Virus record (IMG/VR): IMGVR_UViG_3300033571_011710
Coordinates: 1-22,851 of that record
Direction: 5' to 3' (one strand)
Origin: a virus
DNA length: 22,851 nt
Below the pieces are notes generated by a model that was not told the origin of the DNA, did not search any database, and worked only from the letters and a program-made list of their open reading frames with translations. Positions 4,153-13,024 of this stretch are shown here, one piece after another. Position 1 is the stretch's first letter. Each line of letters opens with the position of its first letter. The position numbers and the translations under genes are program-made.

Positions 4153-4842
4153 ATGACAAACAATTATCGCGTTCACCTGACACACAAATCACGCAACGAA
4201 AAGACCGGACCGATCCCGGTCAGCACAACAACGCAAGAAACATGTCCCTCGAATTGTCCGCTCGCGGGCAAGGGCTGTTATGCTAAAGGCGGTCCTTTGG
4301 CTATTCACTGGAAAGCTGTGACAGAGGGTAAGACCGGAGTTACGTGGCGCGATTTCACGCAAGCCATTGCCGCATTGCCGCAAGGCATACTGTGGAGGCA
4401 TAATCAGGCGGGCGATTTGCCCGGAAACCGCGTGAAGATTGACCGAGGCGCACTTGACGCTCTTGTTGTCGCGAACACGGGCAAGCGCGGGTTCACCTAC
4501 ACCCATTACTCGCCCACTCCGGACAATGCGCGCGCCATTGCAGACGCTAATACGCGCGGATTCACAATCAATCTGTCGGCGAATAATCCGGCACACGCGG
4601 ACCGCTTGGCCGCGCTCAATATCGCTCCCGTGGTCACGGTGCTACCTGCTAGCGTTGACGGTAACGCGACGCGCACACTTGCCACGCCTGAAGGGCGCAC
4701 GATTGCTGTGTGTCCTGCAACGTACAAAGACACGTCGTGCGCGGCGTGCAAGCTTTGCGCGGTTCGCGACCGTAACGTGATTGTCGGGTTTCCGGCACAT
4801 GGTGCGTCAAAGAAAGCCGCGAGTGCAATCGCGGCCGCTTAA
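4153..4842 (+). CDS. Cys-rich phage protein of the DUF7227-like family
   Basis: A 229-aa protein of a family I recognise from phages of Alphaproteobacteria and whose function is unknown. The N-terminus has KTGPIPVST and then CPSNCPLAGKGCYA, with Cys spacing C-x3-C-x6-C. The middle shows alternating strands and helices (LWRHNQAGDLPG, RGFTYTHY, FTINLSANN, APVVTVLP), as in a barrel-like alpha/beta fold. The C-terminus adds VCPATYKDTSCAACKLCAVR, a second Cys cluster. The two clusters could together hold zinc or an Fe-S centre, and a distant link to other Cys-containing phage families such as Gp88 is conceivable; both are inference. The ATG at 4153 fits the start of conserved sequence better than the GTG at 4117, but no strong ribosome-binding site precedes either. 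It is the only long gene in a cluster of very short ones. Confidence 0.8.
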   Translation: MTNNYRVHLTHKSRNEKTGPIPVSTTTQETCPSNCPLAGKGCYAKGGPLAIHWKAVTEGKTGVTWRDFTQAIAALPQGILWRHNQAGDLPGNRVKIDRGALDALVVANTGKRGFTYTHYSPTPDNARAIADANTRGFTINLSANNPAHADRLAALNIAPVVTVLPASVDGNATRTLATPEGRTIAVCPATYKDTSCAACKLCAVRDRNVIVGFPAHGASKKAASAIAAA

Positions 4843-5203: not shown

Positions 5204-5259
5204 ACCTGGCACCCAAAAAACAGACAGACTGAGCAGTAACCACGCCCAAAATTTTGGGC
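5192..5259. repeat. Two inverted repeats around and after a stop codon
   Basis: GTGCCAG (5192-5198) and CTGGCAC (5206-5212) form a perfect 7-bp hairpin whose loop carries the TAA stop codon of the preceding gene. Further on, GCCCAAAATTTTGGGC (5244-5259) is a perfect 16-nt palindrome. Parts of this gap recur between 6598 and 6700, including CCACGCCCAAAATT and ACTGAGCAGTA. There is no T-run on the plus strand, so these look more like mRNA-stability or protein-binding structures than terminators. Confidence 0.55.
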
Positions 5260-6640: not shown

Positions 6641-6677
6641 AAAAAGGGGGCCGACCCTTACAGCCGACCCCCAAAAA
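6641..6677 (-). terminator. Probable terminator of the minus-strand membrane micro-genes
   Basis: Read on the minus strand this is TTTTTGGGGG, an internal part with GGGTCGGC repeated, then CCCCCTTTTT. The G5/C5 stem followed by five T resembles an intrinsic terminator, and it lies about 25 bases beyond the stop of the 59-aa membrane protein gene (6702-6881). The outer stem is short and the loop long, so strength is uncertain. Confidence 0.45.
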
Positions 6678-6701
6678 GTAACAAACTGAGCAGTACCCCC
6701 G

Positions 6702-6881
6702 CTAGCCTATCGTGGTCTCCCACACCGCTCGCGCCCAGTCAGCGAAGGCAACGACGCCGACGCCCAGGGCCACGAGCCAGAACAGTTCGAGCCACACCTC
6801 CCAAGATCGACGCCCCCAGCCATACTTCGGGCGACGCAACACCCGACCCGGCTCACTCTCAACGCGGCGCACCCGGATCAT
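6702..6881 (-). CDS. 59-aa single-pass membrane protein
   Basis: A short minus-strand gene, MIRVRRVESEPGRVLRRPKY at the start. It has a very basic N-terminal part of about 25 residues, then a hydrophobic span WLELFWLVALGVGVVAFADW (about 29-48) and a short polar end. The charge pattern predicts the N-terminus inside the cell. Its ATG overlaps the stop of the gene before it (ATGA), so both are translated from one message. No family is recognised. The position beside the control region suits a lysogeny, superinfection-exclusion or lysis-control role, but that is a guess. Confidence 0.6.
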   Translation of the reverse strand: MIRVRRVESEPGRVLRRPKYGWGRRSWEVWLELFWLVALGVGVVAFADWARAVWETTIG

Positions 6882-7595: not shown

Positions 7596-7928
7596 ATGCC
7601 CAAACCCCGCAACACCGGCCTCTATGGCCGGCCCAAGTACAACCAGGCCGCAAAAGTCATCGCCCGCTTTGGTGGTGAAGCCGCGTTGAGCCGCCTTCTC
7701 AACATCTCAAGGATCAGCGTCTACCGCTGGCAATACTCTCGCCCGTATGGCTCTGATGGTCTGATCCCGACTGCCAAGGTGGAGCGCATCAAGGAACTCG
7801 CGCGCAGCCACGGCGTCCTTCTCAGGCCCGAAGACTGGGTTCCCGAGACTAACCGCTGGGACGGCAACACCCTTCAGCCGCTCGAAGCGAACCGCAAAGC
7901 CTACATGCCAATGGGGGTGGATGAATGA
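7596..7928 (+). CDS. Helix-turn-helix regulator, YdaS/Cro-like
   Basis: A 110-aa probable DNA-binding protein. The HTH is at about residues 27-48 (AALSRLLNISRISVYRW), followed by SDGLIPTAKVERIKELAR and a short GVLLRPEDW motif; this order is typical of small Cro/YdaS-like regulators common in Alphaproteobacteria and their phages. Such proteins act at the phage switch or turn on the replication operon. The ribosome-binding site CGGAGG precedes the ATG. As the first gene after the control region it may regulate its own operon. Oddly, the C-terminal LEANRKAYMPMG is nearly identical, at DNA level too, to a segment within the DUF3310 gene at 9017-9052. The stop overlaps the next start by four bases. 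Confidence 0.8.
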   Translation: MPKPRNTGLYGRPKYNQAAKVIARFGGEAALSRLLNISRISVYRWQYSRPYGSDGLIPTAKVERIKELARSHGVLLRPEDWVPETNRWDGNTLQPLEANRKAYMPMGVDE

Positions 7929-8167
7929 GTAACGATCTCGTTGAGGAAGTGGCGCGGGCGATATGTTTCAATCGAAACGCGCCAACTTGTGTATGCACAA
8001 AGGAAACCGGGTGTCTGGCTAGCGTGATGGTTCGCGTTGATGCCACGCAAGCCCGCGCAGCCATCGCTGCCGTGGCTGAGTGGCTGGATAGTCAAGTTCA
8101 TATGGATGACGAAAATCAGCAGGTTCTTATTGCCGCCCTGCGCGAAGCGCTGGAGGACAAGGGATGA
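7925..8167 (+). CDS. 80-aa hypothetical protein
   Basis: Unrecognised small, mainly helical protein. It begins MSNDLVEEVARAICFNRNAP, has a CVCTKETGC segment (three Cys) and a long helix TQARAAIAAVAEWLDSQ. Such proteins with LVEEVARAIC and an alanine-rich second helix are common near phage replication genes, without an assigned function that I know. Both ends overlap neighbours by four bases (ATGA), so it is part of one translationally coupled chain. Confidence 0.7.
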   Translation: MSNDLVEEVARAICFNRNAPTCVCTKETGCLASVMVRVDATQARAAIAAVAEWLDSQVHMDDENQQVLIAALREALEDKG

Positions 8168-8475
8168 GTGACAAAGACATCGTCAAAATGCTGCGCAAGA
8201 TTGAAGGCACATCGTTACCCATCAGCGTGTGGAAACACCACGCGCTTCGAGCGGCAAGAGAGATAGAGCAAAGCCGCATCGACCTTCAGGAATATTGCCG
8301 CGACGTCGAGGTGCTGACTGAGGAGCGCGACCGCCTGAAGGCGGCACTGGTGCCTTTCGCAAAACTTGAGACATGGCGCGGCGCACATGACCCGGCAGAA
8401 GGAACCATGCGAACGAGGGTTGTCACCGTCCCAGAGATTGAAGCCGCACGCAAAGCACTGGAGGCCAAGGAATGA
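8164..8475 (+). CDS. 103-aa coiled-coil hypothetical protein
   Basis: Unrecognised protein. After MSDKDIVKMLRKIEG, a long charged helix runs from ALRAAREIEQ to LTEERDRLKAAL, a likely coiled coil of about 45 residues. The end VPEIEAARKALEAKE is again helical. Its start overlaps the previous gene (ATGA) and its stop overlaps the resolvase gene. Probably an accessory protein of the replication operon; no function can be named. Confidence 0.7.
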   Translation: MSDKDIVKMLRKIEGTSLPISVWKHHALRAAREIEQSRIDLQEYCRDVEVLTEERDRLKAALVPFAKLETWRGAHDPAEGTMRTRVVTVPEIEAARKALEAKE

Positions 8476-8981
8476 CCTACCCCACCAATCTTATCGGCAT
8501 AGATCCTGGCTTTAGCGGCGGCATCGCCGTGGTCAGCCCCGAGTTTGACCTGATCGCCGTCCACCCGATCCCGATCGTCAAAACCAAGGTCAGCACCGCG
8601 ATCGACGCCCCCGCCCTCGCCAACCTGATCGACGCCACCCGCTGCCGCACAGCCTACATCGAGTTCGTGGTCAGCCGCCCCCGCCAGGCGAACCAATTCA
8701 CGTTCGGCCTCAACACCGGCGTGATCCATGGCGTGGTCCAATGCCTGGGCCTGACCCTGCATACGGTCTCTGCGCCTCGCTGGAAGGCAGGCGTGGGCCT
8801 TGGCCGCTCCGCCCCTGACCAGACCACCTCCGAGACCAAAGCCCGCTCACGCGCCTTGGCAGCGCGAATATGGCCCCTCTATGCCGACCGCTTCGCCAAA
8901 GCCAATGCCGACGGCCTGGCGGAGGCCGCTCTCATTGCGCTGTTTGGCGCTGGCCTCGAAAACGAGAAGGAAACCGCATGA
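8472..8981 (+). CDS. RuvC-like Holliday junction resolvase
   Basis: A 169-aa RNase H-fold nuclease that would cut branched recombination or replication intermediates before packaging. The first strand carries IGIDPGFSGGIA with D11, AYIEFV carries E64, and the C-terminal ADGLAEAALIALFG carries D147 with E151, matching the acidic set of the RuvC family. KAGVGLGRS and KARSRALA supply the usual basic, DNA-facing residues. The length fits phage RuvC-like proteins. The start overlaps the previous gene, and the end overlaps the DUF3310 gene (ATGA). It works with the nuclease, ssDNA-binding protein and endonuclease VII encoded further on. Confidence 0.85.
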   Translation: MTYPTNLIGIDPGFSGGIAVVSPEFDLIAVHPIPIVKTKVSTAIDAPALANLIDATRCRTAYIEFVVSRPRQANQFTFGLNTGVIHGVVQCLGLTLHTVSAPRWKAGVGLGRSAPDQTTSETKARSRALAARIWPLYADRFAKANADGLAEAALIALFGAGLENEKETA

Positions 8982-9262
8982 AGAAGACAGACCGCGTCAA
9001 CAACCCCGCGCACTACCTCGAAGAGAACCGCAAAGCCTACATGCCGATGGGGAAGACCGACCGCGTCAACAACCCCGCGCACTACACCCAGCACCCAAGC
9101 GGTGTGGAGGCGATCCAGATCACCGAGCATTTCGGGTTCAATCTGGGCAACGTCATTAAGTATGTTTGGCGCGCAGACCTGAAGGGTGAAGCTCTGGAGG
9201 ATCTCAAGAAAGCGCAGTTCTACCTGAACCGCGAGATCCAAAGGCGGCAGACCGGGCAGTGA
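8978..9262 (+). CDS. DUF3310 protein with duplicated N-terminus
   Basis: A 94-aa protein. The core GVEAIQITEHFGFNLGNVIK, YVWRADLKGE and LEDLKKAQFYLNREI is the hallmark of DUF3310, a common phage family next to replication genes whose function is unknown. The N-terminus is unusual: the family's normal opening KTDRVNNPAHY occurs twice, at 8984-9016 and 9053-9085 (32 of 33 bases identical), with LEENRKAYMPMG between. That insert is 34 of 36 bases identical to the end of the HTH gene at 7881-7916. The second copy has its own ATG (9041) that may be the ancestral start. The stop overlaps the GTG start of the helicase gene. Confidence 0.85.
   Translation: MKKTDRVNNPAHYLEENRKAYMPMGKTDRVNNPAHYTQHPSGVEAIQITEHFGFNLGNVIKYVWRADLKGEALEDLKKAQFYLNREIQRRQTGQ
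8984..9085 (+). repeat. 33-bp direct repeat (period 69 bp) in the DUF3310 gene
   Basis: Copies at 8984-9016 and 9053-9085 differ at one base and keep the reading frame. The 36 bases between them match 7881-7916 in the HTH gene with two differences. Both parts look recently copied. Confidence 0.95.
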
Positions 9263-12419: not shown

Positions 12420-13024
12420 TGGACGGGGAGAACCATACCCTGTTTGACGGTCTTCCCGGCTTCGAAATGAGCCGGGAAGAACTTAAGCGGCTGCGCACGC
12501 GGGAATACTTCCGCGAATATAATCGCAAGCGCCTGGCAGATCCTGCGTATCGCGAACGGGAGCGCGAACGGCAGCGCGAACGGCAGCGCAAGCGCAGGGC
12601 AGATCCTGCGCATCGCGAACGGGAGCGCGAACGGGAGCGCGAACGGCAGCGCAAGCGCAGGGCAGATCCTGCGTATCGCGAACGGAAGCGCAACCTTGTT
12701 CGCAAATGTTTGTACGACTTAACGCCGTCGCAGCACCAAGATTATTTGCTGAAACAGAAAGGTGTCTGTGCCATCTGCGAGCGGCCAGAAAAAATAAAAA
12801 GAAAGGGCGTAACAATGTCGTTGTCGGTTGACCACTGCCACCAAACAGAAGAAGCCCACGGCATGAAATTCGCTGTGCGCGGTCTGCTCTGCAAAAGTTG
12901 CAACACGGTTCTGGCACGCGCAACGGCGCACCGTAGCTGGTTCAAGAAGGCGAAAATGTACATCGAAGAGTTTGAACGTGGGTTGAAACTCAAACTCATG
13001 GCAGCAGGAATAAAACATGATTGA
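12419..13024 (+). CDS. Endonuclease VII-like HNH nuclease with Arg-rich repeats
   Basis: A 201-aa protein. The C-terminal part is a recombination endonuclease VII domain: CAICERPEK (C117, C120), the metal-binding MSLSVDHCHQ (D138, H139, H141), VRGLLCKSCN (C158, C161, N162). This family resolves branched DNA or nicks specific sites. Residues about 40-90 are a tandem repeat of a 21-aa Arg/Glu/Gln unit (ADPAYRERERERQRERQRKRR in its first copy, less its last residue), a long charged helix likely to bind nucleic acid or dimerise. The DNA repeat unit is 63 bp. The start overlaps the DUF2815 stop by one base. A resolvase of RuvC type is also present, so the two may act on different structures. Confidence 0.85.
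   Translation: MDGENHTLFDGLPGFEMSREELKRLRTREYFREYNRKRLADPAYRERERERQRERQRKRRADPAHRERERERERERQRKRRADPAYRERKRNLVRKCLYDLTPSQHQDYLLKQKGVCAICERPEKIKRKGVTMSLSVDHCHQTEEAHGMKFAVRGLLCKSCNTVLARATAHRSWFKKAKMYIEEFERGLKLKLMAAGIKHD
12536..12690 (+). repeat. 63-bp tandem repeat in the endonuclease VII gene
   Basis: Copies at 12536-12598 and 12599-12661 are 61 of 63 bases identical, and a partial third begins at 12662. Inside each copy are 12-bp sub-units encoding Arg-Glu-Arg-Glu or Arg-Glu-Arg-Gln. The near identity indicates recent expansion, and the frame is preserved. Confidence 0.95.

Follow-up and report, generated by a model that had tools for sequence, protein, structure and literature searches.

Proteins of the DUF3310 family (PF11753; phage SaV-like or "nucleotide kinase" PHROGs 236, 11324, and 2781) include the lactococcal SaV protein (PMC8306868) and, according to PMC10700055, gp1.7 of phage T7, and some of them slow host growth on overexpression (PMC8306868, PMC10700055). 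Phage genomes become mosaic through illegitimate and homeologous recombination (PMC2327257), and the junctions left by template switching usually or often show 2-5 bp of microhomology (PMC2621351). The locus analyzed here lies in a 22,851-nucleotide stretch of DNA (the window), which is a single metagenomic virus record (IMGVR_UViG_3300033571_011710). Our analyses suggest, with a probability of about 0.75, that the DUF3310 gene of this phage underwent a recent in-frame duplicative insertion of 69 nt by illegitimate recombination or replication.

Repeats at the start of the DUF3310 gene

The features concerned are given below, where X and Y denote the two repeated segments and L082 the closest relative.

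7596-7928, plus strand: HTH gene (Cro/YdaS-like, "carph-isopro" HTH domain), whose 3' end is the source of X; weak family matches; 96% amino acid identity in L082
7881-7916, plus strand: X1, the original 36-nt segment (LEANRKAYMPMG) in the HTH gene; same segment at the end of the L082 HTH gene
7925-8167, plus strand: small orphan gene 1, 80 aa; matched nothing in Pfam, PHROG, NCBIfam, or phage records; GC3 0.54; absent from L082
8164-8475, plus strand: small orphan gene 2, 103 aa; no match in protein families, phage records, plasmids, or viral contigs; GC3 0.62; absent from L082
8472-8981, plus strand: RuvC-like Holliday junction resolvase gene (predicted); phrog_1770, E 3.8e-24; synteny; 61% amino acid identity to L082
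8978-9262, plus strand: DUF3310 gene with a 23-residue N-terminal insertion, 94 aa; PF11753, E 2.6e-17, residues 30-84
8978-9016, plus strand: Y1, first copy of the DUF3310 start (MKKTDRVNNPAHY), with the start codon and preceded by a purine-rich AGAAGGA
9017-9052, plus strand: X2, 36 nt copied from the HTH end (LEENRKAYMPMG); 34/36 to X1
9047-9085, plus strand: Y2, the DUF3310 start repeated ([MG]KTDRVNNPAHY), running on into the conserved domain

The locus runs X1, two small genes, RuvC, Y1, X2, Y2, and the body of DUF3310. Y1 and Y2 are identical at 36 of 39 bases (32 of 33 over the KTDRVNNPAHY codons), and X2 fills exactly the space from Y1 to the KTDRVNNPAHY block of Y2. The coordinates and identity of X1 and X2, and the place of X2 between two nearly identical 33-nt blocks, are as given in an earlier sequence-only reading of this DNA, and the paired copies support its view that they are the footprint of a duplication; the 23-residue lengthening of the DUF3310 protein that it proposed is likewise borne out. 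Compared with a normal DUF3310 gene, the insert is 69 nt (23 codons) long, 36 nt from the HTH end and 33 nt from the DUF3310 start, with the frame kept. X1 and X2 are also in the same reading frame. The X1/X2 and Y1/Y2 pairs together show three differences over the 69 inserted bases, and the sequence shared exactly at the junctions amounts to 0 and 1 nt, in line with illegitimate joining. At one Y site, the codon is ACC in Y2, as in relatives L085 and L097, and ACA in Y1, in keeping with Y2 being the original domain start. About 1e-9 pairs of 36-mers as good as X1/X2 are expected by chance in the 22.8-kb window, and there is no third copy of X on either of its strands, the next best match having at least 15 mismatches. 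A stricter DNA pattern for X found no match anywhere searched, whereas a degenerate one matched the L082 contig alone among 2.9 million viral contigs, by which X as a widespread repeat is rejected. The X-Y junction, for which the peptide pattern KAYMPMGK was scanned in viral and genome collections, is carried by none of the relatives examined.

The window protein belongs to the DUF3310 family by its PF11753 score of 63.0 bits against a gathering cut-off of 24.0, residues 30-84 corresponding to profile positions 1-60, i.e. from Y2 onward. A single N-terminal DxVNxPxHY motif at the domain start is an observed habit of the family and not a formal criterion. The window protein has two copies, 23 codons apart, whereas all other members examined have one; the DUF3310 proteins of the fetched loci carry one motif of this type at their start, and no DUF3310 gene of the 199 fetched loci has two NxPxHY motifs besides that of the window. 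The doubled motif is an insertion on top of the DUF3310 family and no argument against membership. Because AGAAGGA lies shortly upstream of the ATG at 8978 and the internal ATGs at 9041 and 9047 have no comparable site at a suitable spacing before them, the 94-residue form is probably the one made. The structure predicted from 36 sequences has a confident helical core (pLDDT ~83-98, residues 41-94) after a low-confidence start (~50-63, residues 1-40), and this low confidence over the first ~40 residues suggests that the extra residues belong to an N-terminal tail preceding the conserved core, a position that may tolerate an insertion; we infer that the longer protein still works. A structure search with the predicted model returned no usable match.

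The HTH protein matches Pfam P22_Cro and YdaS_toxin and NCBIfam carphisopro, all below the curated cut-offs, and the RuvC-like protein is assigned to the resolvases, as a prediction, by its phrog_1770 profile match and by D11, E64, and D147, which are invariant in the alignment. The two small orphan genes (7925-8475) overlap each other. The next gene after DUF3310 encodes an SNF2-type helicase, as in the gene order of the relatives, and further downstream lie genes for an exonuclease, an Enc34-type ssDNA-binding protein, endonuclease VII, and a family A DNA polymerase. Within the endonuclease VII gene, three tandem 63-nt units (window 12512-12700) encode an Arg/Glu-rich repeat of the RKRRADPA type.

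Gene order in relatives and the age of the insertion

The sole close relative found was contig IMGVR_UViG_3300015613_000298 (loci L082 and L120), in which HTH, RuvC, DUF3310, and helicase follow one another in this order, with amino acid identities of 96, 61, 75, and 91%, respectively. Its HTH gene terminates in its own version of X, LEANRKAYVPMGVDE, which makes X part of the HTH gene; its RuvC gene starts at the HTH stop, with neither of the small genes present, and its DUF3310 protein has a single normal N-terminus, MKKKDAINPDHY. Six bases distinguish X1 from the L082 version, of which X2 shares five with X1 and one with L082. On the evidence of these five X1-specific bases, the comparison shows that X was copied within the window lineage, after its split from L082. 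The HTH gene differs by 13% between the window and L082, and set against this figure, the three differences in 69 inserted bases indicate that the insertion is younger than the split without being brand new. The sequence-only reading had also taken the footprint to be young, which agrees with this low difference and with the fetched DUF3310 relatives, none of which has a two-copy N-terminus.

Similarity to L082 falls sharply at the HTH stop codon, and divergence from L082 is far greater in RuvC and DUF3310 than in HTH and the helicase gene on either side. This pattern fits homologous replacement of the block, RuvC plus DUF3310 having probably been swapped for homologues in the window or the L082 lineage; because the window and L082 remain paired with each other in the RuvC tree, the source of the swap would have been a phage of the same broad group. 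The wider set of HTH-bearing relatives comprises 13 distinct contigs (L082-L091, L096, L097, and L107). RuvC directly follows HTH in 11 of these 13 and stands between HTH and DUF3310 in all seven contigs showing all three genes, whereas HTH adjoins DUF3310 in none of the relatives examined, which argues that RuvC is an old resident between the two. X is absent from the variable C-termini of the other HTH relatives. Within the block, only the two small genes (7925-8475) look like arrivals, because they are absent from L082, have no relatives in the collections listed above, and are low in GC3 (neighbors, 0.74-0.84); either they were gained in the window lineage or they were lost in L082. The proposal that the whole 1-kb block is a recent arrival therefore holds for the two small genes but not for RuvC, which is resident in relatives; RuvC itself may have been swapped for a homologue, given its 61% identity between flanks at 96 and 91%. 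A transposon or cassette with a 36-nt target duplication is rejected, since RuvC is ancestral and no transposase or integrase was found in 7925-8977 among Pfam and PHROG profile matches; a block absent in relatives, short direct repeats, and a transposase do not occur together here.

Other repeats were seen in the two genomes. A dispersed intergenic repeat (..CAAAAA..ACAGACTGAGCAGTAACCACGCC..) occupies two sites per genome, at 5212-5245 and 6669-6702 of the window and at 4262-4301 and 5418-5457 of L120. A short inverted repeat, GCCCAAAATTTTGGGC, adjoins it at the first site, and part of it (GACAGACTGAGCAGT) recurs where the L120 DUF3310 gene ends. Non-coding positions 5330-5385 of L120 hold two identical tandem 28-nt units, CACGCCCAAAATTCCGGGCGACACTCGC.

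Possible routes to the insertion

We infer a molecular route that would begin with the arrangement HTH-(small genes)-RuvC-DUF3310. Once past Y, the start of DUF3310, DNA synthesis or joining would have switched to the HTH 3' end ~1.1 kb upstream, copied 36 nt there (X), and then moved forward to DUF3310 codon 3 to continue, giving Y-X-Y. Alternatively, a tandem duplication of 7881-9016 followed by loss of the second RuvC block would give the same product, as would an unequal exchange with an HTH::DUF3310 fusion; the three are not told apart by the sequence, and no intermediate was found among the relatives examined. What the comparisons show under any of them is that X came from the HTH gene of the window lineage, after the L082 split, with RuvC already present.

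The unequal exchange would have involved two phages, one with a deletion fusion HTH(X)::DUF3310(Y) and the other with the normal HTH-RuvC-DUF3310 order, recombined so that the end of Y was joined to the start of X. This would yield exactly X-B-Y-X-Y in a region that does recombine, as judged from RuvC and DUF3310 diverging between well-conserved neighbors, and in a phage that encodes an exonuclease, an ssDNA-binding protein, and endonuclease VII. It is nevertheless unlikely, as it requires a fusion phage without RuvC, of which none was found in the viral and genome collections scanned, as well as a Y-X join without homology. Less probable still is the model of the sequence-only reading, in which DUF3310 directly followed HTH, its start nested in the HTH 3' end, until 7925-8977 (two small genes and RuvC) was inserted with a duplication and split them. 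X1 and X2 do flank the block as direct repeats, and the small genes are atypical in GC3 and missing from L082. However, the position of RuvC in L082 and the other relatives speaks against a direct ancestral order, and with X2 read in the HTH frame, X joined directly to Y would be an in-frame HTH::DUF3310 fusion and the ancestor a fusion protein, which leaves no nested start. That reading had itself named the lack of any genome with the two genes adjacent as grounds for refuting it, and the loci available contain none.

A chimeric metagenomic contig, created in assembly or in the library, would account for a structure known from one record, with an X-Y junction seen in no other viral contig examined, but it is improbable given that the copies differ at several positions, that neither junction breaks the frame, and that two independent false junctions would be required. 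A functional shared peptide (a tag or interaction motif) arising independently in both proteins has next to nothing to recommend it beyond a peptide almost unchanged between copies (one replacement, A to E), as neither the other HTH relatives nor any other DUF3310 protein seen has X, and peptide-level convergence is rejected by the DNA identity, which extends to third positions.

Viewed in this way, the 69-nt insertion is a minor and ordinary by-product of phage genome rearrangement and no trace of a lost gene order. It provides a clean example of a phage protein acquiring a new N-terminal segment from an unrelated neighboring gene in one or two steps, and because a close relative without the insertion exists, its source, target, and rough age can all be read. 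It also illustrates that repeats flanking a block are alone no proof of the recent arrival of that block. A far-fetched extension is that recombination forms coexist in the phage population, exchange between X1 and X2 removing the small genes and RuvC to leave an in-frame HTH::DUF3310 fusion and exchange between Y1 and Y2 restoring a normal DUF3310 gene, as a switchable module in which the fusion would alter regulation or host takeover. The insertion as such raises no major question.

Comparison with known systems

Like other members of the DUF3310 family, the window protein matches the whole Pfam model; unlike any other member examined, it has 23 extra residues at its N-terminus, with KTDRVNNPAHY present twice and a fragment that comes from another gene. 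As in the templated insertions attributed to FoSTeS-MMBIR (PMC2621351), the insert is a short copy of a nearby locus with the insertion site duplicated on its flanks, so that it qualifies as a templated insertion. On the other hand, its junctions of 0 and 1 nt fall short of the 2-5 bp of microhomology by which MMBIR/FoSTeS is recognized, although later mutation could have erased some of it, and the locus is in a phage; the insertion works like template switching and is not classed as MMBIR. From the point of view of phage mosaicism (PMC2327257), the RuvC/DUF3310 block, far more diverged than its flanks and with a sharp left boundary at the HTH stop codon, is of a familiar kind, to which the window adds a small duplicated footprint inside a gene.
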